Source: Opitutales bacterium
Lineage (GTDB): Bacteria > Verrucomicrobiota > Verrucomicrobiia > Opitutales > UBA2995
Direction of reading: 5' to 3'
Length of the DNA stretch: 64,000 nucleotides
Assembly (NCBI GenBank): GCA_022824405.1
Contig: JAJDZZ010000075.1
Location: 1-64,000, forward strand
How positions within the stretch are numbered: the stretch's first letter is position 1; each line of letters begins with the position of its first letter. The notes under the pieces were generated by a model. The model searched no databases. It was not told the origin of the DNA and was given only the letters and a program-made list of their open reading frames with translations. Shown here in pieces: positions 48,828-60,536 of this stretch. A program made the translations under genes and the position numbers.

Positions 48828-49181
48828 CTAGGCCGGAACAGACTTGGGGTTCGGCCCGTACTGATTCTCACCGTCTTGACTATCCAACACCGCAAAAACC
48901 AGGATAACAATTGTCCCGACGATGGGTACCAATATTAGGAGCACCCACCATCCGCTGCGGCCGGTATCGTGTAGCCTCCTGAACAACACGGCGAAACTTG
49001 GAATAAAAACGGCCAGCCCGTAGAGAAGCCCGAGAAAGGGCGCAATGCCAGCCAATCCTTCGATCAAGCTCAACAGAATCGAGATAATGCTACTGAAGAG
49101 AACGAAAAACCAATATTCCCTCCGTCTTGCCCGACCCCTGAACACCGCATATTTCTTTAAGACCTCAATATACCACTTCAT
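48828..49181 (-). CDS. DUF805 membrane protein
   Basis: A 117-aa protein of the DUF805 family: MKWYIEVLKKYAVFRGRARRREYWFFVLF opens it, followed by three hydrophobic segments and the conserved RRLHDTGRSGWWVLL. Its function is unknown in any organism I can recall. A direct repeat GCTAGGCCGG lies at its 3' end (48815-48836) and overlaps the stop. Confidence 0.9.
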   Translation of the reverse strand: MKWYIEVLKKYAVFRGRARRREYWFFVLFSSIISILLSLIEGLAGIAPFLGLLYGLAVFIPSFAVLFRRLHDTGRSGWWVLLILVPIVGTIVILVFAVLDSQDGENQYGPNPKSVPA

Positions 49182-49451
49182 GTTATTTCCTCCATATTTC
49201 CGTTATATCGCCTGGAGCGACCATTGAATTTTGAGGCCTATGCCAGAGCAAGGATCGCCCACAAATTGTGCAACCATGGGCTATCGATCCGTCAGGTCAA
49301 ATCCGAATATCCTGACCGAAACTTCGGAATTTGGGTTTCCGGAGAAAATTACTTGTTATCGGGGAATCTCTGCTCAACCCTGAAGAGTTCCGCAATTCAT
49401 GGTGTTCCCATCCCTAGTCAACCGCCCATTCCCGTCGCGTCCGCCCCGGTC
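49182..49451. other. Gap upstream of the pilus-like operon
   Basis: This 270-base gap separates the DUF805 gene from the PilM/PilN-type gene. An open frame with a TTG at 49224 would extend the next protein by 76 residues; that part lacks family likeness, so I treat it as non-coding leader. No hairpin or clear promoter is visible. Confidence 0.4.
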
Positions 49452-51080
49452 ATGACGGAGCAAAGCGTTCTGGCTTTGGGAGCGAGCCACGTTTCCATAG
49501 CTCAGTTTTATCTTGGTCGTAGCGACGGGCTGGTTCTAAACCGCGCCATTCGTCGAACATTGGATTCCGATCCTGAAAAAAGGGACGGGTGGTTATCCGC
49601 CGTGGGGGACGAATTGACCGGGATGCGGTCCCGGTTTCCCCTCAGTAGCGTTGGAGGCCTGGTCCTCCCGGAATGGGGTGTGCTGACAAAGCATTTGAGG
49701 GTTACGCGCATTGAAGGGGATGGGCAAAGAGAAGTGGTTCGTTTCGAAGCGGAACAGGCCTTCCCCAACGGATTGGAGGGGTTTCATTGGGCCTATGGCG
49801 TATTACATGACGACGGGGTCGAACGCGATGTTTTGGTGCACATGGTGGAGAGGGATTTCCTCGATAAACTGCTCGAAATGCTTCGCTCTTTCGAAATCCG
49901 GCCTCGCTTTATCGACGCGTTCGTGTCAGCCCACCTCAATGCCTATGCTTACAACTATGGCGGGGACACGATCCGGACCCTGCTGCTCGATGTTGGGGCG
50001 AGGTCGGTATCGCTTTCCGTGGCAGGGGGTAATGGGGCGCCCTTCCTGAGAAGCCTGAGTTTTGGGGGCAGTCAAATTACCCAGGCCCTCGCGACCGGGC
50101 TCGGCCGGAGTTTCGCGGAAGCCGAAAAGCTCAAAATTCAATGGCTGGAAAATCCTGCTGAGGACCCGGCCCATCTGGCTCTGCTCAACCGGGCCTCGGA
50201 AGGATTCGTAAGGCGCCTGCTGAATGAGGTCCAGCGTTCCCTGGCGCTTTATCGACGACACCATCAGGCGGGAAATCCCGCGAGAGTCCTATTGTCGGGA
50301 ATGGTCGGCCTCCTGCCGGAACTGGCGGATCGCCTTGAGCGGAAAACGGGCATTCCCGTTACCCTCTACGATCCTTTTAAAAACCTCTCCCTGGGGGACG
50401 GGGTTGCTCCGGGCAGCGCCGCCAAATGGGCCCCTTCGCTTCCCGGGCGGGTGGGAGTGGCGGCCCGCCTTGTCGGGGCTTCCCCCGTCGACATCGATTT
50501 GTTGCCGGAGGCCCATTCCTCGGGCTTGGCCTTTTCCGAGAAAAAACCGTGGCTGAAAGCGGCTGCGGGATTATTTCTGGGGGCCGGGATTCTCATCGGG
50601 TTAAAGTTCCAGGGCCAAGCCTGGAACCTGAAGCGGGAAATAGATCGGGCGGGCATTCAGGTCGACGCCATGGAAGCCTCGGCCCGGGAAGTCCGGGCTG
50701 CCCACGAGAAATTCAACGCCTTGAAGTCTCGCCAGGTCAGCCAGGCCGGGCTTCGCCACGAACGCATTTGGCATGTATCGTTATTGGCGGACCTTCAGGA
50801 ACGGCTCAATCGGGTGCAGAACGTATGGCTGGAGTCCTTCCGCGCCGTCTCGGACGATGCGGGCGACCGGCAGTTGCGCATGACGGGCAGTTTGTTGGAT
50901 CGACAAAACCCCCTGTCCGTTGTCAGTTCGGATTCCCGCAGGCAAGTGGAATCCCTGTTGTCTTCCTTCGAGGACTTACCCTTCATCGCGACGGTCGGGG
51001 ACCGTCGATTCGACACCTCGCGGCCTGGAATACTGAAGTTTGACGTATCGCTGACCCTGGAGCCCGAAAGGCCATATTGA
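49452..51080 (+). CDS. PilM-PilN fusion, Amuc_1101-like pilus complex protein
   Basis: A 542-aa protein that joins an actin-like PilM domain to a PilN-like membrane half. The actin-like half (about 1-350) has LLLDVGARSVSLSV (177-190) and VLLSGMVGLLPELADRLERKTG (279-300). At 347-353 the text VDIDLLPE mirrors the INLLP motif that opens PilN. One transmembrane helix follows (367-386), then a coiled coil and a PilN-like periplasmic domain (LLADLQERLNRVQNVWLESF). The start ATG at 49452 lacks a good ribosome site; a TTG at 49224 is the alternative. It leads an operon with the next three genes. Confidence 0.82.
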   Translation: MTEQSVLALGASHVSIAQFYLGRSDGLVLNRAIRRTLDSDPEKRDGWLSAVGDELTGMRSRFPLSSVGGLVLPEWGVLTKHLRVTRIEGDGQREVVRFEAEQAFPNGLEGFHWAYGVLHDDGVERDVLVHMVERDFLDKLLEMLRSFEIRPRFIDAFVSAHLNAYAYNYGGDTIRTLLLDVGARSVSLSVAGGNGAPFLRSLSFGGSQITQALATGLGRSFAEAEKLKIQWLENPAEDPAHLALLNRASEGFVRRLLNEVQRSLALYRRHHQAGNPARVLLSGMVGLLPELADRLERKTGIPVTLYDPFKNLSLGDGVAPGSAAKWAPSLPGRVGVAARLVGASPVDIDLLPEAHSSGLAFSEKKPWLKAAAGLFLGAGILIGLKFQGQAWNLKREIDRAGIQVDAMEASAREVRAAHEKFNALKSRQVSQAGLRHERIWHVSLLADLQERLNRVQNVWLESFRAVSDDAGDRQLRMTGSLLDRQNPLSVVSSDSRRQVESLLSSFEDLPFIATVGDRRFDTSRPGILKFDVSLTLEPERPY

Positions 51081-51086
51081 CCGGTA

Positions 51087-52040
51087 ATGCCCAATTTTTC
51101 CGATAATCCTGCCAGGAAGTCTCTTCTCCTTTTCGCCCTTCTCGCCCTTCCCCTGTTGGGGTTTGTGTTGTGGAGCGGAATGCGCCGGAACGAACAGTTG
51201 GCCGAACTGGAGGATATCTATCGACGCATGGCCTGGGCCCAGTCCGGGCCCCTTTCATCGGATCCCGAAACATTGGCTGCCCTCAATCAAACCATAGCCG
51301 CCCTGGAGGAGAGATTGCTCCTGCGGGAAAGGGATCTTTTTCAAGAAATTCCAGGTGTATCGAGCACAGAAGTATCCGGTACCCCAACGGCTGCATTTTT
51401 CGAATTGGCCGGTTTTATCGAGAGCGCCTATGCCAAATTGGAGGCCAACGGTATCGGCTTTGAGCCTGGCGAACGGTTCGGGTTTTCCCAGTTTACCCAT
51501 CAGGGTCCGGAAGAAAATATTCTGGATGCCGTAATGGAACAAAAAATAGTAGCGCAGTATTTGATAGACCGAATGGTCGCGGCCAAACCGGCCCGGCTGA
51601 CGGAAATGAAACGTGAGTGGATTGCCCCGGCAAGTGAGCCCCGGCAATCCGGGCTCAGGCAAGCAGCGGGCAGCCAAGCTGCCCAAGCCCCTTCCACGGA
51701 GGACACGATTGCGCAACGAAAGGACCGCCCCGGATATGTGGGCTACGTCTTCGAGATCGGGTTTGAGGGGTACTCCGAGGCATTGCGGCAATTTTTAACC
51801 GGACTGTTGACCGCTCCCGTCCCCATCCTGGTCAATGCCCTGAGGGTTGACCCGCTCGATCGCTACGCGGAACCGGATGTCTCGGACGTGGATGCGATTC
51901 CCCACAATCCATTCGAGCTCTTGAGTGCGGCGCAGAATGATCCCGAGGAGGAAAATCCCGTGCCCATTATTCAAAGCAACCTATCTTCCTTTACCGTTAC
52001 CTTGGAAACAATTCTTCGAAGGCGGGATCAGGACCAATAG
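51087..52040 (+). CDS. Amuc_1100-like pilus-associated protein (PilO-like)
   Basis: A 317-aa protein with an N-terminal signal anchor (about 12-31, KSLLLFALLALPLLGFVLW), a coiled coil (EQLAELEDIYRRM, LAALNQTIAALEERLL), then a periplasmic domain with PTAAFFELAGFIESAYAKLEANGI and a second ferredoxin-like half with YVFEIGFEGYSEALRQFLTGLL. The length and layout match Amuc_1100 of Akkermansia, a secreted/outer-membrane pilus-associated protein, though identity is low by eye. It lies 6 bases after the PilM-PilN gene. Confidence 0.72.
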   Translation: MPNFSDNPARKSLLLFALLALPLLGFVLWSGMRRNEQLAELEDIYRRMAWAQSGPLSSDPETLAALNQTIAALEERLLLRERDLFQEIPGVSSTEVSGTPTAAFFELAGFIESAYAKLEANGIGFEPGERFGFSQFTHQGPEENILDAVMEQKIVAQYLIDRMVAAKPARLTEMKREWIAPASEPRQSGLRQAAGSQAAQAPSTEDTIAQRKDRPGYVGYVFEIGFEGYSEALRQFLTGLLTAPVPILVNALRVDPLDRYAEPDVSDVDAIPHNPFELLSAAQNDPEEENPVPIIQSNLSSFTVTLETILRRRDQDQ

Positions 52041-52041
52041 G

Positions 52042-52917
52042 ATGAAGGGGTGGGAGAAAATCGCCTGTGGGATTGGCGGCGTCACCTTCCTCGCCGCCCT
52101 GGTTTGGGGGGCGCTGACCTTCACCCATACCCCGGAAATACCCCTCGCCGAAAGCGCCGGAGAATTCGACCATGAACTCCCCCCATCCGGAGAGCTTTCC
52201 GAAACGGCGGAATGGGGGAAGCCTTCTCCCCAGGGGGGGCCAGACTGGATTTTCGATATTTTTACCCCTCCCGTCATATATTTTAACGAGACGACGGGGA
52301 CCTTCGCGGTTACCCCTCCCTTCCAGGAAGAGACCGGGATGGCGGATGATTTCGAATTGCGCCTTCTCGGCATCAGGCGGGAACCCTACCGGTTTCAGTT
52401 GGTTGCATACGCCGGGAATCCGGGCCAATACGTCCTCACCCTGGAAAACCTTGAAACCGGAAAAGATGTTTTTTGCGCCCCCGGGGAAATCCTGGCCGAA
52501 CACCAGATCCGGGTAGACGGTTTCATGGAAGCCCGGAAGGTCCCGTCCACATTGCGGGAAGGGAGGACCGAGGTGTTCGATCTGGTGGGCCAAGCGACCG
52601 TTACCGACCTGCGCAACGACCGGACCTACGTTTTGCGCCATAGCAAGATCGCCTATCAGGACCAACCCAGCGGCGTTTTCTCCGATCCGGAAGGGACCCA
52701 AATCGTCCTCCGAAAGGGGCAGAGTTGGCGGTCTTCCCTGGCAAGTTACACGCTTTTGGGGATCCATGCGCGGGACCGTCAGGTAACGGTGGAAAAATCC
52801 TCGTTAGTTGGAGGTGACAATTTCCAAAAAATACTACAATCTCCTAATGACGATAATCCGTCCGACCTGACGATCCGCCATACCACTGGATCAGACTCAT
52901 TGCCGGAGGTATTTTGA
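52042..52917 (+). CDS. Amuc_1099-like pilus system protein
   Basis: A 291-aa protein from the ATG at 52042, which starts one base after the previous stop. An N-terminal helix (about 5-27) is followed by a mature region starting with WIFDIFTPPVIYFNETTGTF, containing FELRLLGIRREPYRFQLVAYAG and a C-terminal beta domain (TQIVLRKGQSWRSSLASYTLLG). I recognise no named enzyme motif; the assignment as Amuc_1099-like comes from gene order, size and topology. A longer frame to 51925 overlaps the neighbour and is rejected. Confidence 0.65.
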   Translation: MKGWEKIACGIGGVTFLAALVWGALTFTHTPEIPLAESAGEFDHELPPSGELSETAEWGKPSPQGGPDWIFDIFTPPVIYFNETTGTFAVTPPFQEETGMADDFELRLLGIRREPYRFQLVAYAGNPGQYVLTLENLETGKDVFCAPGEILAEHQIRVDGFMEARKVPSTLREGRTEVFDLVGQATVTDLRNDRTYVLRHSKIAYQDQPSGVFSDPEGTQIVLRKGQSWRSSLASYTLLGIHARDRQVTVEKSSLVGGDNFQKILQSPNDDNPSDLTIRHTTGSDSLPEVF

Positions 52918-52929
52918 GACAGCTTGACC

Positions 52930-55470
52930 ATGAATTGTTTTGTTAGGACTTTAAAGCCACTTCTGGTTCCCGGGCTTTTGCTTGGGGGCCTGCTTACAGC
53001 TCCTGCCGCCAACGGCGCCCTGACCTCCGAGGAAAAAATGGATCATTTTACCGAAGCTCTGGCTGCTCGGGACGCCGGGGAATATTACATCGCCCGACAG
53101 AAGCTCGAGATTTTGGCCCGGGAATATCCCCTCGACTCCTTGGTCGAATCTACCCTCCGGGAAGTAAATGAACGGATAACCGCTTCCCAGGAGGCTGGCC
53201 GAACCGGCGTCACCGCTGCTCCGAGCGAGGCCGACAGCGAAATCGACTCCCTCATGCGCGATGAAATGGATCGGCAAACCCAGGCCCTGAATCGGGCGGA
53301 AAGAGCCGTGCTGGAAAGTGAGAGGATGATCCGGAGCGGGGATTACGGCCGTGCCCTCGGCGTCATTTACAGCGCCTTGAGAACCTTGCCGGATAATGTA
53401 ACGACCCAATCGGTCCGGCATCGTTTGAACCGAAAGAAAGCGGATGCCTTGTTCGCCCAAGCCAGCGCTTTATTGAATAGCGGCAACAAGCAGGCGGCCT
53501 GGGAGAGTTTGGCCGCTCTGGCCGTCCTGGAAGGCAATTCCACGCGGTTTCAGCAGTTGAAGACCGCTTTCGACAACGACCGACCCCTCGACCCCTCCGT
53601 CCTTTCGGCCCCCCCCGCCGACGTCTCAGCGGCCCCAGGCAATACCCAATCCTCCCCAACGGTCGCCCATCGAGGAACCCCGGCCGTCCCTGCTTCATCC
53701 AGCCGAGACGAGTTCTTTGAAATTGTCGGGGTGGATCCCGGCGCAAGATCCCGCCGTGACCTGCGCGGGGATATGATTTCCGAGGTGGAAAAATCCTGGA
53801 GCCGGCCCCAGGTGTTGGTCCAATCTTCCTCGGCCTTGGCTCAGGAAGCCGATCCGGTGGTCATGTTGCAGAAGCTCAATTCCATTATCATCCCCTCCGT
53901 CAGTTACGGGGAAATGGAGTTGAGCCGGGTGGTTAATTCTCTCAACGAGCTTTCTCTGCGATTCGACACCGGACTCGAGGAAAAAGCGGTCAATATCGTG
54001 TTGATAGACCCCAATAAGGTGGATCCGAAGATCAACATCACCCTGCGCAATTTGTCCTTGAAGCGAGTACTCGACTTCGTGGTGGATTCTGTGGGTTTCC
54101 AATACGACGTGGAAGTGGATGCCGTGGTCATTCGTCCGGGCGAGGGAGGAGCCGCCTCCAACCTGGAGACGGAATTTTTCCCGATTTCCCGTTCGACCTT
54201 CATTCGCATGACGGGTATCGGGGTCGGGGAGGACGTTGGGGTGGATGTGGACGATCCCTTTTTGCCGGTTTCCCCGGGCATTCCCGACGGAGGTGTGGAT
54301 GAGGCCGGGGCGCTGCAGAACTTTCTCCAGCAGGCGGGGGTCGATTTCGTGGGCAATCCCGGCAGCAGTCTGGCTTATGACGGCTCGTCCATGATTGTGA
54401 CCCAGACCAAGCGCAATCTGGATCGGATTCGCAATATCCTGAACCGCTACGACGAAGTTCGGCAGGTGGAAATAGAGGCCAAGTTCCTCGAGGTGGCCCA
54501 AGGAGACTTGAACGAACTCGGGTTTGACTGGACCCTGACCCGCAGGAACCAAACCTATACTTCGTCCAATCGCTCCGTTACCGGTTCCTTTAATCGGGGT
54601 TCAAGCGATTCGAACATCATCATAGACGGCCAGGCGGTAGACACGCTTTATCCTCCCCAAATCCCCGGGGAAAACGCGTTTGCCGCCGCGAGCGGTCCCT
54701 TGGGCGTGGTGACGAACGCCTTGGGGAATTTCGACGTGGTCGGCATGCTTCGCGCCCTGTCGCAAAAATCCGGTTCGGACCTGCTTAGCGCGCCAAAAGT
54801 AACCGTCCTCTCAGGGGATCTGGCTACCATAACGGTGGCCCAGGAACTCCGTTATCCGGAATCCTACAGCGATATCGAACCGGAAGTCGGTTCGGGGTCA
54901 TCCCTTACCGGCGGCAGCAGCGGGTCGGCCGGAGTCATCATCGCCGCCGGCACACCGCAGGATTTTACCGTGCGAAACGTCGGCGTGGAACTCAGCGTAA
55001 CCCCTCGGGTGGAAGAAGACGATTACAGCATTACCCTGGATTTGTATCCCAAAGTGACGGAATTCGATGGATTCGTCGAGTATGGCGGTCCCAGCATCGC
55101 GATTTCCAGTGGGCGGCAGGTTTCCGTTCCTTCCGGGTTTTACCAGCCTATCTTTTCCGTGCGGGAAGTGAAGACCAGGGTTACGATCTGGGACGGGGCC
55201 ACACTGGTAATGGGTGGTTTGACACGGGAGGAAGTGAGGGAGATAGACGACAAGGTTCCGTTTTTTGGGGATTTACCCTTGATCGGGCGGGTTTTTCGCT
55301 CCAAAGGCGAAACCATGCAAAAAAGAAACCTGCTCATATTCGTCACCGCCAACATGGTCAGTCCGGGAGGCTCCTTTAAGAATCAGCGCGCGGGAACCGT
55401 GCAACCAAACTCCACCTTTCAAAATCCGTCCGTATCGACTCCCGGCGGATTGGAATTCCGGAACCCTTGA
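52930..55470 (+). CDS. Amuc_1098-like type IV pilus/type II secretion secretin
   Basis: An 846-aa outer-membrane secretin. Signal peptide about 1-30; an N-terminal helical, TPR-like region (about 35-215) is followed by a linker and the secretin N-domains (SLRFDTGLEEKAVNIVLIDP, INITLRNLSLKRVLDFVVDSVG). The C-terminal secretin domain is unmistakable: QVEIEAKFLEVAQGDLNELG, LLSAPKVTVLSGDLATITVAQ, VGVELSVTPRVEEDDYSITL, and LVMGGLTREEVREIDDKVPFFGDLPLIGRVFR. The ATG at 52930 is 12 bases after the preceding stop; a TTG at 52924 is in frame. With the three genes upstream it should form one trans-envelope complex. Confidence 0.9.
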   Translation: MNCFVRTLKPLLVPGLLLGGLLTAPAANGALTSEEKMDHFTEALAARDAGEYYIARQKLEILAREYPLDSLVESTLREVNERITASQEAGRTGVTAAPSEADSEIDSLMRDEMDRQTQALNRAERAVLESERMIRSGDYGRALGVIYSALRTLPDNVTTQSVRHRLNRKKADALFAQASALLNSGNKQAAWESLAALAVLEGNSTRFQQLKTAFDNDRPLDPSVLSAPPADVSAAPGNTQSSPTVAHRGTPAVPASSSRDEFFEIVGVDPGARSRRDLRGDMISEVEKSWSRPQVLVQSSSALAQEADPVVMLQKLNSIIIPSVSYGEMELSRVVNSLNELSLRFDTGLEEKAVNIVLIDPNKVDPKINITLRNLSLKRVLDFVVDSVGFQYDVEVDAVVIRPGEGGAASNLETEFFPISRSTFIRMTGIGVGEDVGVDVDDPFLPVSPGIPDGGVDEAGALQNFLQQAGVDFVGNPGSSLAYDGSSMIVTQTKRNLDRIRNILNRYDEVRQVEIEAKFLEVAQGDLNELGFDWTLTRRNQTYTSSNRSVTGSFNRGSSDSNIIIDGQAVDTLYPPQIPGENAFAAASGPLGVVTNALGNFDVVGMLRALSQKSGSDLLSAPKVTVLSGDLATITVAQELRYPESYSDIEPEVGSGSSLTGGSSGSAGVIIAAGTPQDFTVRNVGVELSVTPRVEEDDYSITLDLYPKVTEFDGFVEYGGPSIAISSGRQVSVPSGFYQPIFSVREVKTRVTIWDGATLVMGGLTREEVREIDDKVPFFGDLPLIGRVFRSKGETMQKRNLLIFVTANMVSPGGSFKNQRAGTVQPNSTFQNPSVSTPGGLEFRNP

Positions 55471-55524: not shown

Positions 55525-55836
55525 ATGAAGCGCTTCGTCTTCACCATCCTTCTGACCACTTTCATGCTGCTCTGCGTGGGCGCTTTGGGCATCATGACCA
55601 TCGAACTCTACGAGACCCGCAACCAACTGTCATACCTGCAAACCCGCCATGCCGAATACCAGGAACGCATCAAGGAAATTGAACAGGATCTGGCCGCCAA
55701 GGACGAATACCTGGACAAATTATTGACCGATCCCGTATTCCTCGAACGAGTCGTGCGGGAAAGACTGGGTTACAGTAGACCCGAAGAATGGATTTACCGT
55801 TTTCCCCAGGAGGATGAGGAGGAAACCGGGGATTGA
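55525..55836 (+). CDS. FtsB/DivIC-like septum protein
   Basis: A 103-aa bitopic protein: short N-terminus, transmembrane helix (about 5-26, FVFTILLTTFMLLCVGALGIM), coiled coil (ETRNQLSYLQTRHAEYQERIKEIEQDLA), then the family's VFLERVVRERLGYSRPEEWIY. FtsB helps recruit the divisome. It follows the secretin gene by 54 bases and overlaps the UDP-sugar pyrophosphorylase start (TTGA), so it is co-expressed with envelope genes. Confidence 0.85.
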   Translation: MKRFVFTILLTTFMLLCVGALGIMTIELYETRNQLSYLQTRHAEYQERIKEIEQDLAAKDEYLDKLLTDPVFLERVVRERLGYSRPEEWIYRFPQEDEEETGD

Positions 55837-57266
55837 CCGTGGCGCATCCTCTTATAACCGAATTCGAGAACGCGGGGCAGGGACAGGTTTTCCAATATTG
55901 GGATCAATTGAGCGGGCCCGAAAAAAAAACCCTGCTGCGACAAGCCGGGGAAATAGACTTGGCCCAAATCAGTCGCCTCAACCATGCCCTCCTGCGGGCG
56001 GATGCTGGCGTTGATTCGCGGGACTATTCCGACCTGAACCCCGCCCCTTATATCGCCCACCCCTCCAACGGCGGGGATCCCGATGCCTGGAAGGAAGCGA
56101 CCGCGATGGGCGAGGCGGCCCTGCGTGCGGGCCGGGTAGCGGCGTTCGTAGTGGCGGGAGGCCAGGGCACGCGGCTCGGGTTCGACAAGCCCAAGGGATT
56201 TTTTCCGGTCACCCCGATCCGGCAAAAATCCCTCTTCCAGGTTTTTGCCGAAAAAATCAAAGCTGCCGAAGTGCATTACCGGAGTCGCCTCCCCTGGTTT
56301 ATCATGACCAGCCCTTTCAACCACGCCGATACCATGGCATTTTTTCACGAACACGATTTTTTCGGGTTGTCGGAGGAACGGGTCCGTTTTTTCCGTCAGG
56401 GCAGAATGCCGGCGGTCGGGTTCAACGGACAAATTCTCCTTTCCGGCAAGGGCAGGATTGCCATGAACCCCGATGGCCACGGGGGTTCCCTTCCGGCTCT
56501 GGTGCGAAGCGGGGCCACCCGCCTCATGGCCGAAAACGGTATCGATTTGCTCAGTTATTTTCAGGTGGACAACCCCCTGTGCAAAGTCATCGACCCGGCC
56601 TTTATCGGGTTTCACATCCTGGGCGGGGCGGATATGTCGAGCAAAATGATCCCAAAGGCCTATGCCGAAGAAAAGATGGGCGTATTTTGCCTGCAGAGTG
56701 GCAAGGTAGTCGTGATCGAATACAGCGATCTCCCGGCTGACCTGATGCATGCCAAAGACGACCTTGGCAACTTGCGATTCCAGTCCGGAAGCATTGCCAT
56801 TCACCTGTTGTCCCTTGAATTTATTGAAAAAATGGGAGCCGCCGACCCTTCATCTCCCGGCCTTCCCTTCCACCGAGCCCAAAAGAAAATCCCCGCCTTG
56901 GACGCGGATGGAAATGTCTGCCTTCCGAATTCACCCAATGGCGTCAAGTATGAGCGGTTTGTTTTCGACGCGCTCCCCTTCTCCAAAGAATCAGTCGTGC
57001 TGGAGACCCGCCGAGCGAGTGAATTCAGCCCGGTTAAGAACCGGCAGGGGCTGGATTCGCCCGGAACTTCCGCCGAAGCCCAGATGAAGGAATTTGCTTC
57101 CTGGCTGGAAGGCGCTGGTGAAATCGTGGCCAAAACCGACAACGGCGTCCCTCTTTACCCCATTGAGGTAAGCCCGCTGTTCGGATACGATGAAGCAACT
57201 TTTTTACAGAAGTGGAAGTCCCTTGCCAAAAAACCGGATCTCAACCAATCCCTTTATCTGTCCTGA
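55833..57266 (+). CDS. UDP-sugar pyrophosphorylase of the UAP1/UDPGP family
   Basis: A 477-aa uridylyltransferase of the eukaryote-like UDPGP family, most like UDP-GlcNAc pyrophosphorylase. The activation loop is VVAGGQGTRLGFDKPKGFFPV (106-126). Further segments: FIMTSPFNHADTMAFF, PDGHGGSLPALVRSG, FQVDNPLCKVIDPAFIG, and EYSDLP. It should use UTP with GlcNAc-1-P or a hexose-1-P. The start is the TTG at 55833, which overlaps the ftsB-like TGA; GTG at 55839 is the alternative. The phosphohexomutase follows at once, giving a two-step sugar activation pair. Confidence 0.88.
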   Translation: MTVAHPLITEFENAGQGQVFQYWDQLSGPEKKTLLRQAGEIDLAQISRLNHALLRADAGVDSRDYSDLNPAPYIAHPSNGGDPDAWKEATAMGEAALRAGRVAAFVVAGGQGTRLGFDKPKGFFPVTPIRQKSLFQVFAEKIKAAEVHYRSRLPWFIMTSPFNHADTMAFFHEHDFFGLSEERVRFFRQGRMPAVGFNGQILLSGKGRIAMNPDGHGGSLPALVRSGATRLMAENGIDLLSYFQVDNPLCKVIDPAFIGFHILGGADMSSKMIPKAYAEEKMGVFCLQSGKVVVIEYSDLPADLMHAKDDLGNLRFQSGSIAIHLLSLEFIEKMGAADPSSPGLPFHRAQKKIPALDADGNVCLPNSPNGVKYERFVFDALPFSKESVVLETRRASEFSPVKNRQGLDSPGTSAEAQMKEFASWLEGAGEIVAKTDNGVPLYPIEVSPLFGYDEATFLQKWKSLAKKPDLNQSLYLS

Positions 57267-59268: not shown

Positions 59269-59766
59269 TCAATCGACTTCGATCTGCTCCTCCACCACAA
59301 CTTCCCGAGGCATCCCCAGGTAACAGTCCGCCCGTACCGCGCAAAACCCTTTCCGCTTATCCCGATAGATGGGCCATAACAACTGTCGGTCCGTTTCGGG
59401 AACGGGCAGATCGTCAATCTTCCCGTCCGGGAAAAATCCAAACCGGCCCTCCTCGATCGATGCGGGCAAGTCGTTGATCGGCTTCGTGCAATCGAATAGA
59501 AACATCAACCAGTGAGTGGATGCCTCATATCCCTTTTCCGTAATCATGCAAAAGAGATGCAAATCCTGCTCGGTTATGGCCAGCCCCGTCTCCTCGCCGG
59601 TTTCCCGGATGGCAGTCTGGAAGGGCGATTCCCCGTGAGACATTTCCAGCTTTCCGCCGATCGGACTCCAGCAACCGATATTGGGCTCCTTGGCCCGTTC
59701 CAGGAGAAGCAGTTCGCCGCGGCGATTGCGCAAAAATACCAGGACACTGATTTTGAAGGGGAGCAT
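59269..59766 (-). CDS. Nudix hydrolase
   Basis: A 165-aa Nudix protein, started at the ATG at 59766 (MLPFKISVLVFLRNRRGELLLLERA). The Nudix box is GGKLEMSHGESPFQTAIRETGEETGL; REtGEEtGL fits the consensus, but the stretch between the first G and E is two residues longer than usual. Nearby WSPIGGKLE and LMFLFDCTKP fit MutT/pyrophosphatase relatives. It is on the minus strand, convergent with the phosphohexomutase. Substrate unknown. Confidence 0.85.
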   Translation of the reverse strand: MLPFKISVLVFLRNRRGELLLLERAKEPNIGCWSPIGGKLEMSHGESPFQTAIRETGEETGLAITEQDLHLFCMITEKGYEASTHWLMFLFDCTKPINDLPASIEEGRFGFFPDGKIDDLPVPETDRQLLWPIYRDKRKGFCAVRADCYLGMPREVVVEEQIEVD

Positions 59767-59894
59767 GGAGGGGGCAGGTCCTAACCTATACCGGTTTTGG
59801 CTAAATTGTTTTGGCCGGGTGCGCTCCAGTCCGTCCTTGCCCATTCCGCCGTGGCCCATAACGTGTGTGATCCATTCTCCATTTGGCCTAAACA

Positions 59895-60536
59895 GTGTAC
59901 TTGAGAAAAAAAATTGCTAGGGAATTTCGCCTCCGGAACCTGTGGGCCATCTGTTCCTTCGCCTTCTTCCCTTGTTTCGGACTGTCAGGGCAAGGGGATC
60001 TCCGCATAACGGAGGTGAATTTCGATATGGAACGCTCCGACCGGGGCGGCGATCATTGGTTGGAAACCACGGTGGAGGTCCAAGTGCGCGGCAATTCGGA
60101 CCCTGCCGCGGTCAACCGGCTCTACCTGGACAATGTCCGGGTCTATATCGCCCTGGCTTTCAATCTCGGCTCCCGTTCCCGTACCCGCCTGGAGTATTAT
60201 TGGTCGGAGGTGGAGGCGGCCACACTGGAACGCGGCACCCACGAATTTCGCTTCTACCTCCCCCCCGACCTGATTGAGCGCAGTCGCCTGACCGGCGGTC
60301 CCCCCTACGCTTTCCACGTCGAAGTCGGCGCTGGCAGTAGCGGCGGGGCCAATCCCGCGGTCGCGGTATCGGACAATTTGCGTGATCCGGCCCGGCTGGA
60401 GCGCTTCAATGCTCTGCTGGAAGGGGTCAGGGACAAACAGTCCGGCGTTCTCCTCCCCCAGGCAGAGTCCCCCTTCCGCGACATGTACCTGGGCCAGACC
60501 CCCACCGCCAAGGGGTACCTCCGTTCGCGGGAATGA
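59895..60536 (+). CDS. Secreted protein, possibly Amuc_1102-like pilus protein
   Basis: A 213-aa exported protein starting at a GTG (59895), with a signal peptide (LWAICSFAFFPCFGLSGQG). The mature part has an Ig-like/beta-sandwich look: LRITEVNFDMERSDRGGDHWLETTVEVQVRG, LYLDNVRVYIALAFNLGSRSRTRLEYYWSEVEAATLE, then FRFYLPPDLIERSRLTGGPPYAFHVEVG. This order matches my recollection of Amuc_1102-family pilus-like proteins, whose gene adjoins the 1098-1101 set in Akkermansia. Here it lies 4.4 kb downstream of the secretin, after four unrelated genes. The likeness is unproven. Confidence 0.55.
   Translation: MYLRKKIAREFRLRNLWAICSFAFFPCFGLSGQGDLRITEVNFDMERSDRGGDHWLETTVEVQVRGNSDPAAVNRLYLDNVRVYIALAFNLGSRSRTRLEYYWSEVEAATLERGTHEFRFYLPPDLIERSRLTGGPPYAFHVEVGAGSSGGANPAVAVSDNLRDPARLERFNALLEGVRDKQSGVLLPQAESPFRDMYLGQTPTAKGYLRSRE

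Follow-up and report, generated by a model that had tools for sequence, protein, structure and literature searches.

Positions 1 to 64,000 of contig JAJDZZ010000075.1 (GenBank assembly GCA_022824405.1), referred to here as the window, come from a member of the Opitutales and contain a relative of the Amuc_1098-1102 (MUL2) locus of Akkermansia muciniphila (Table 1). With a probability of about 0.8, we read this locus as encoding a type IV pilus-like assembly complex that spans the envelope and in which pilins would be assembled through a channel by the ATPase PilB and the platform protein PilC. This reading is carried by a conserved four-gene operon, a fifth gene separated from it, motor genes on other contigs of the same genome, and the joint loss of scaffold and motor genes among Opitutales genomes.

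A five-part locus with one displaced gene

The four operon genes all lie on the + strand, with intergenic gaps of 6, 1 and 6 bp. The initial annotation had described them as encoding a PilM/PilN protein, a PilO-like protein, a protein with one transmembrane segment and a secretin, in the order of the Akkermansia genes 1101-1100-1099-1098, and the open reading frames and domains that we found agree with that description. In the first product, a PilM_2 domain (E = 4e-20) is combined with a PilN-like remainder, and residue 368 lies close to a hydrophobic segment; the second and third each have a single hydrophobic segment, at the N terminus; and the fourth has a Secretin domain (E = 2e-32). The frame of the first gene is open already from a TTG at 49224, upstream of the ATG at 49452, and the secretin gene has an alternative ATG start at 52930. 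That annotation also pointed to a length of exactly 317 residues for the PilO-like protein. We dropped this as a family signature because lengths differ among relatives, with full-length Opitutia homologues mostly spanning ~295-366 amino acids.

Table 1. Coordinates of the Amuc_1098-1102-type genes in the window and of the gene beside the displaced member
Gene	Position	Strand	Length (amino acids, aa)	Product
Amuc_1101 homologue (MUL2B)	49452..51080	+	542 aa from ATG	PilM-like, hydrophobic segment, PilN-like
Amuc_1100 homologue	51087..52040	+	317 aa	PilO-like, inner-membrane-anchored, periplasmic
Amuc_1099 homologue	52042..52917	+	291 aa from ATG	One transmembrane segment, beta-rich periplasmic, PilP gene-order position
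Amuc_1098 homologue	52924..55470	+	848 aa from TTG	Outer-membrane secretin (PilQ), long N-terminal extension
NUDIX hydrolase gene	59269..59859	-		Flanks 1102 in relatives; not a machine part; marks the ancestral neighbourhood
Amuc_1102 homologue (MUL2A)	59895..60536	+	213 aa	Pilin-like fold, probably secreted; 4.4 kb downstream of 1098

Hidden Markov model searches against the Amuc families, which the initial annotation had proposed as a check, returned those families as best matches rather than ordinary PilM or GspD. The best NCBIfam model for the first product is Amuc_1101_fam (E = 9e-64, versus 5e-22 for pilM), for the second Amuc_1100_fam (E = 1.8e-6) and for the secretin Amuc_1098_fam (E = 1e-109, versus 4e-44 for gspD), with leads of 138 bits over pilM and 216 bits over gspD. 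As a control, the GspD of the same genome's type II secretion system (T2SS) scores 7e-94 with gspD and only 1e-16 with Amuc_1098_fam. The 1099 product, searched as a single protein, has no direct NCBIfam or Pfam family match.

We therefore present the comparison of whole families alongside these single-protein scores, using one profile set from Opitutia loci, collected by a secretin scan, and another from Akkermansia-type and other Verrucomicrobiota loci. In a 5x5 hhalign comparison of the Opitutia and Verrucomicrobiales families, each family paired with its counterpart (1101 and 1098 at 100%, 1100 at 99.7%, 1102 at 97.5%, 1099 at 95.1% with E = 3e-8), and every off-diagonal pair stayed at or below 42.5%. 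The 1101 profile matches the solved PilM 3jc8 (E = 5e-47), and the first Protein Data Bank (PDB) matches of the 1100 profile are the Amuc_1100 crystal structures 6lad and 6kny (E = 6e-9); the profile was required for the latter, since the single 1100 sequence gave only noise. Amuc_1100_fam is matched by 19/19 Opitutia 1100 homologues, and Amuc_1099_fam is reached weakly by 4 of the 18 Opitutia 1099 members (best E = 6e-4). Our structure model of the 1099 protein shows a transmembrane helix at residues 4-27 followed by beta strands (mean predicted local distance difference test score, pLDDT, 78). A fold search with this model returned nothing below E = 0.001 and no PilP or GspC, Pfam showed no PilP or GspC likeness in the 18 homologues, and an internal repeat within 1099 was unsupported (hhalign 9.7%). 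Taken together, the family matches, the profile-profile diagonal and the Amuc_1100 structures bear out the proposed homology and gene order, and the assignment of the set to the Amuc_1098-1102 kind is well supported.

A fifth gene, at 59895-60536, was overlooked in the initial annotation. It is a homologue of Amuc_1102, and all five parts therefore lie within the window. Its product matches genes that stand directly upstream of 1101 in relatives (phmmer E = 3e-28), and its family aligns with the Akkermansiaceae Amuc_1102_rel family (hhalign E = 7e-12). The AlphaFold (AF2) model (pLDDT 84) has as its top PDB match 7DSZ, which is Amuc_1102 (E = 2e-6) and the sole entry below 1e-3. In many Opitutia relatives, the gene immediately upstream of 1101 encodes a secreted protein of ~200 amino acids and has a NUDIX gene on its far side, and other classes have Amuc_1102_rel (NF042424) in the same position at up to E = 3e-75. 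The NUDIX gene of the window is matched by 49 reading frames in related loci, typically just upstream of 1102 or 1101.

The five genes of the window do not form one run with 1102 first, as in most relatives that have this gene. We conclude that the split is a rearrangement, because hisG and rpsA are upstream and on the opposite strand here, whereas in relatives they share the strand of 1098 and are found downstream of it. In G412, a genome of the same family, 1102 and 1101 are likewise separated, in a different layout.

A probable motor encoded elsewhere in the genome

From the absence of a pilus ATPase, PilC, pilin and prepilin peptidase in the window, which our searches confirmed, the initial annotation suggested a scaffold lacking its own motor and proposed a genome-wide search. 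That search places all of these parts on other contigs. Two PilB/GspE-type ATPases, PilB1 and PilB2, stand in tandem on contig C64 and a PilC/GspF protein on C11, all outside the T2SS; the prepilin peptidase is on C51, and genes for pilin-like proteins with an N-methylation motif are on C69 and C73, besides those on C10. The T2SS forms its own cluster (C10 27000-46000; L021) with three pseudopilins, GspK/L/M-like genes, GspD, GspE and GspF. Of the genes to be sought, pilB, pilC and pilins were thus found and pilT was not, in a draft assembly that is 96% complete: PF00437 gave three strong matches only, in open frames of 561-572 amino acids, none of them PilT-sized, and a fourth, below the cut-off, that covers 76 positions. 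PilT is present in G412. A pilin on C69 (L022 6307-6834, - strand) shows a likeness to the one encoded beside PilC in an Akkermansia-type genome (25% over 210 amino acids, E = 6e-12, in a nine-sequence comparison), but this is too weak to assign it as the cognate pilin.

Two lines of evidence tie these genes to the scaffold. In relatives, including a same-family one, the motor orthologues form a single operon, coaE-rho-PilB2-PilT-PilB1-PilC, and in Akkermansia-type genomes coaE-rho follows directly after 1098. Because coaE-rho is common to both halves, motor and scaffold look as if they came from one cluster. The second line is co-occurrence, counted by hand across 249 Opitutales genomes with E < 1e-83 as the threshold for a PilC orthologue. 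This orthologue is present in 182/204 genomes with 1101 and in 4/45 without it; conversely, it is absent from 41 of the 45 genomes without 1101 and from 22 of the 204 with it, four of the 22 being ambiguous (Fisher p = 3e-26, uncorrected for kinship). Joint absence also occurs inside genera that have members with both genes (G311 in g27, G010 in g3, G391 and G405 in g198, G424 in g31), and in G284, G358 and G346 the motor genes are broken or fragmentary and the scaffold genes are lost or fragmentary. GspE-type ATPase matches persist in most Opitutales genomes that have neither 1101 nor PilC. One family, f12, which may be the Methylacidiphilales, has 1101 absent or nearly so and lacks both 1098 and the PilB/PilC orthologues. 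The presence of 1102, on the other hand, does not track the motor, as G018 and G075 lack it and keep PilB1/PilC.

Because of the co-loss with 1101 and the coaE-rho gene order, we conclude that the PilB/PilC set probably drives the complex. We found no published motor assignment for it in the open literature searched; our data point to a specific PilB-PilT-PilB-PilC set, and this is testable by deletion.

In the mechanism that we propose, 1101, a fused PilM-PilN, would provide the cytoplasmic and inner-membrane platform, the PilO-like 1100 and 1099 in the PilP position would span the periplasm, and 1098 would form the outer-membrane secretin. The 1102 protein would be a secreted pilin-fold accessory whose gene was split off by rearrangement. 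PilB-type ATPases (C64) acting on PilC (C11) would then build a filament of pilins encoded elsewhere through the channel, and the assembled machine may serve in attachment and glycan capture; a role in glycan attachment and uptake is known only from the literature on Akkermansia and its relatives (PMC13174399).

Some features of the motor loci stand beside this model. In L140 (G284) and L141 (G358), the PilB1/PilB2 frames are broken by stops or shifts, 1101 is lost and 1098 is absent or a fragment, giving the appearance of joint decay. In the genome of the window, PilC lies on a contig other than that of PilB1/PilB2, and this contig, C11, retains the PilC neighbours seen in G412. Directly upstream of pilC, in the slot of PilB1 in relatives, two small genes on the - strand (L020 7697-8195) resemble by eye a BrnT/BrnA toxin-antitoxin pair, and it is possible that this pair caused or marks the break-up of the motor operon.

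Weighing the alternatives

Several observations weigh against a PilB/PilC-driven pilus-like machine of the Amuc kind. The single-protein scores all fall below the NCBI equivalog cut-offs (650 bits for 1101), which makes the window set a divergent, distant member, and 1099 and 1102 are recognisable only at the profile or fold level. Motor and scaffold genes are not linked in this genome or in the single-contig relatives used for comparison, ~9-11% of the Opitutales genomes with 1101 are without a PilC orthologue, and some genomes, such as G108, keep the motor PilC without 1101. Further, 1102 was not found in 91/249 Opitutales genomes, some with the motor kept (G018, G075), PilC and PilB1 score equally against the GspF/GspE and PilC/PilB models, and the filament is a prediction from the genes.

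If the complex were instead a motorless trans-envelope scaffold, working without an ATPase as a static channel or to anchor glycan-binding proteins at the surface, the lack of motor genes in the window and of PilT among this genome's matches would fit, as would the Opitutaceae G060 and G361, which keep 1101-1098 with short secretins and without 1102 or PilB1/PilC orthologues. We consider this quite unlikely, because PilB1, PilB2, PilC, the peptidase and pilins are present outside the T2SS and because scaffold and motor are lost jointly in most cases. The equal scores of PilB1/PilC with the GspE/GspF models could also suit a type II-like secretion system, in which pseudopilins push exoproteins through the 1098 secretin. 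In a paper on aquatic Akkermansiaceae (PMC13174399), the locus is described as "similar to a secretion system", and one of the genes beside it carries the label "secretion system channel protein". A separate T2SS on C10 already has its own GspD-E-F and pseudopilins, however, and in relatives the motor comes with a retraction ATPase of the PilT family, as is typical of type IV pili, which makes secretion of this kind improbable. The two machines do share secretin, ATPase and platform superfamilies, but they sit in separate clusters, and their secretins fall to different families. That the locus is simply the PilMNOPQ set of a type IVa pilus, without any particular tie to Akkermansia, is extremely unlikely: its PilM domain and secretin are normal superfamily members and solved PilM proteins match, but the Amuc models lead by the wide bit margins given above, the first structural matches of 1100 and 1102 are Amuc proteins, and PilMNOPQ operons have no counterpart of 1102.

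The pilus-like reading may not hold uniformly across the order. Since our searches recovered no PilT here and the motor genes of this genome are split between contigs, and since G060 and G361 have a scaffold without 1102, PilB1 and PilC and with a shorter secretin, we raise the tentative and rather unlikely alternative that in parts of the Opitutales the complex is uncoupling from pilus dynamics, with a real motor-free channel derived from a pilus machine in some Opitutaceae. At the loci of G060 (L142), G361 (L145) and G376 (L148), the NUDIX gene abuts 1101, 1102 is missing, the secretin frames are short and no PilB1 orthologue is present; G060 and G361 additionally lack a PilC orthologue. These three are possible natural motor-free scaffolds.

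Relation to known systems and distribution

Compared with the MUL2 locus of Akkermansia muciniphila, the window has the same five families, the 1101-1100-1099-1098 order with the secretin last, single-segment 1100 and 1099 proteins and a pilin-like 1102 fold. It differs in the divergence of its proteins, in the displacement of 1102 to a site beside its NUDIX neighbour, in having DivIC-UDPGP-PGM rather than coaE-rho after 1098, and in belonging to an organism with no known host. Parts and gene order also agree with the proteobacterial and Thermus PilMNOPQ, if 1101 is equated with PilM plus PilN, 1100 with PilO, 1099 with the PilP position and 1098 with PilQ. Unlike those systems, the window has PilM and PilN fused into one chain, a 1099 without Pfam or PDB-fold likeness to PilP, an extra 1102 and a secretin with a long N-terminal extension.

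The secretin scan recovered 80 related loci, 90-40% identical and nearly all from Opitutia or other Verrucomicrobiota, the closest named one (90%) belonging to an Opitutia metagenome-assembled genome. The order 1101-1100-1099-1098 is conserved in Opitutia loci and 1102-1101-1100-1099-1098 in other classes. Matches to the Amuc_1101 family (E <= 1e-3) occur in 374/388 Verrucomicrobiota genomes, a count that includes distant PilM matches; 35 pass the cut-off. The literature text that we consulted does not mention the Opitutales. A full five-part set in an Opitutales genome, together with Amuc_1101-like proteins across most Verrucomicrobiota, implies that the machine is ancestral and general rather than a gut specialty. 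As Amuc_1100 is a studied probiotic protein and its parent complex a studied mucin-capture system, gut-specific readings should begin from a pilus-type scaffold.

Two features flank the operon. Divergent from it, at 48828-49181 on the - strand, lies a gene for a DUF805 membrane protein (E = 2e-31) that is unmatched in the 80 related loci. After the secretin, 55525-57266 encodes a DivIC-like septum protein and then a UTP-sugar uridylyltransferase, an arrangement repeated after 1098 in L025, the locus with 90% identity.

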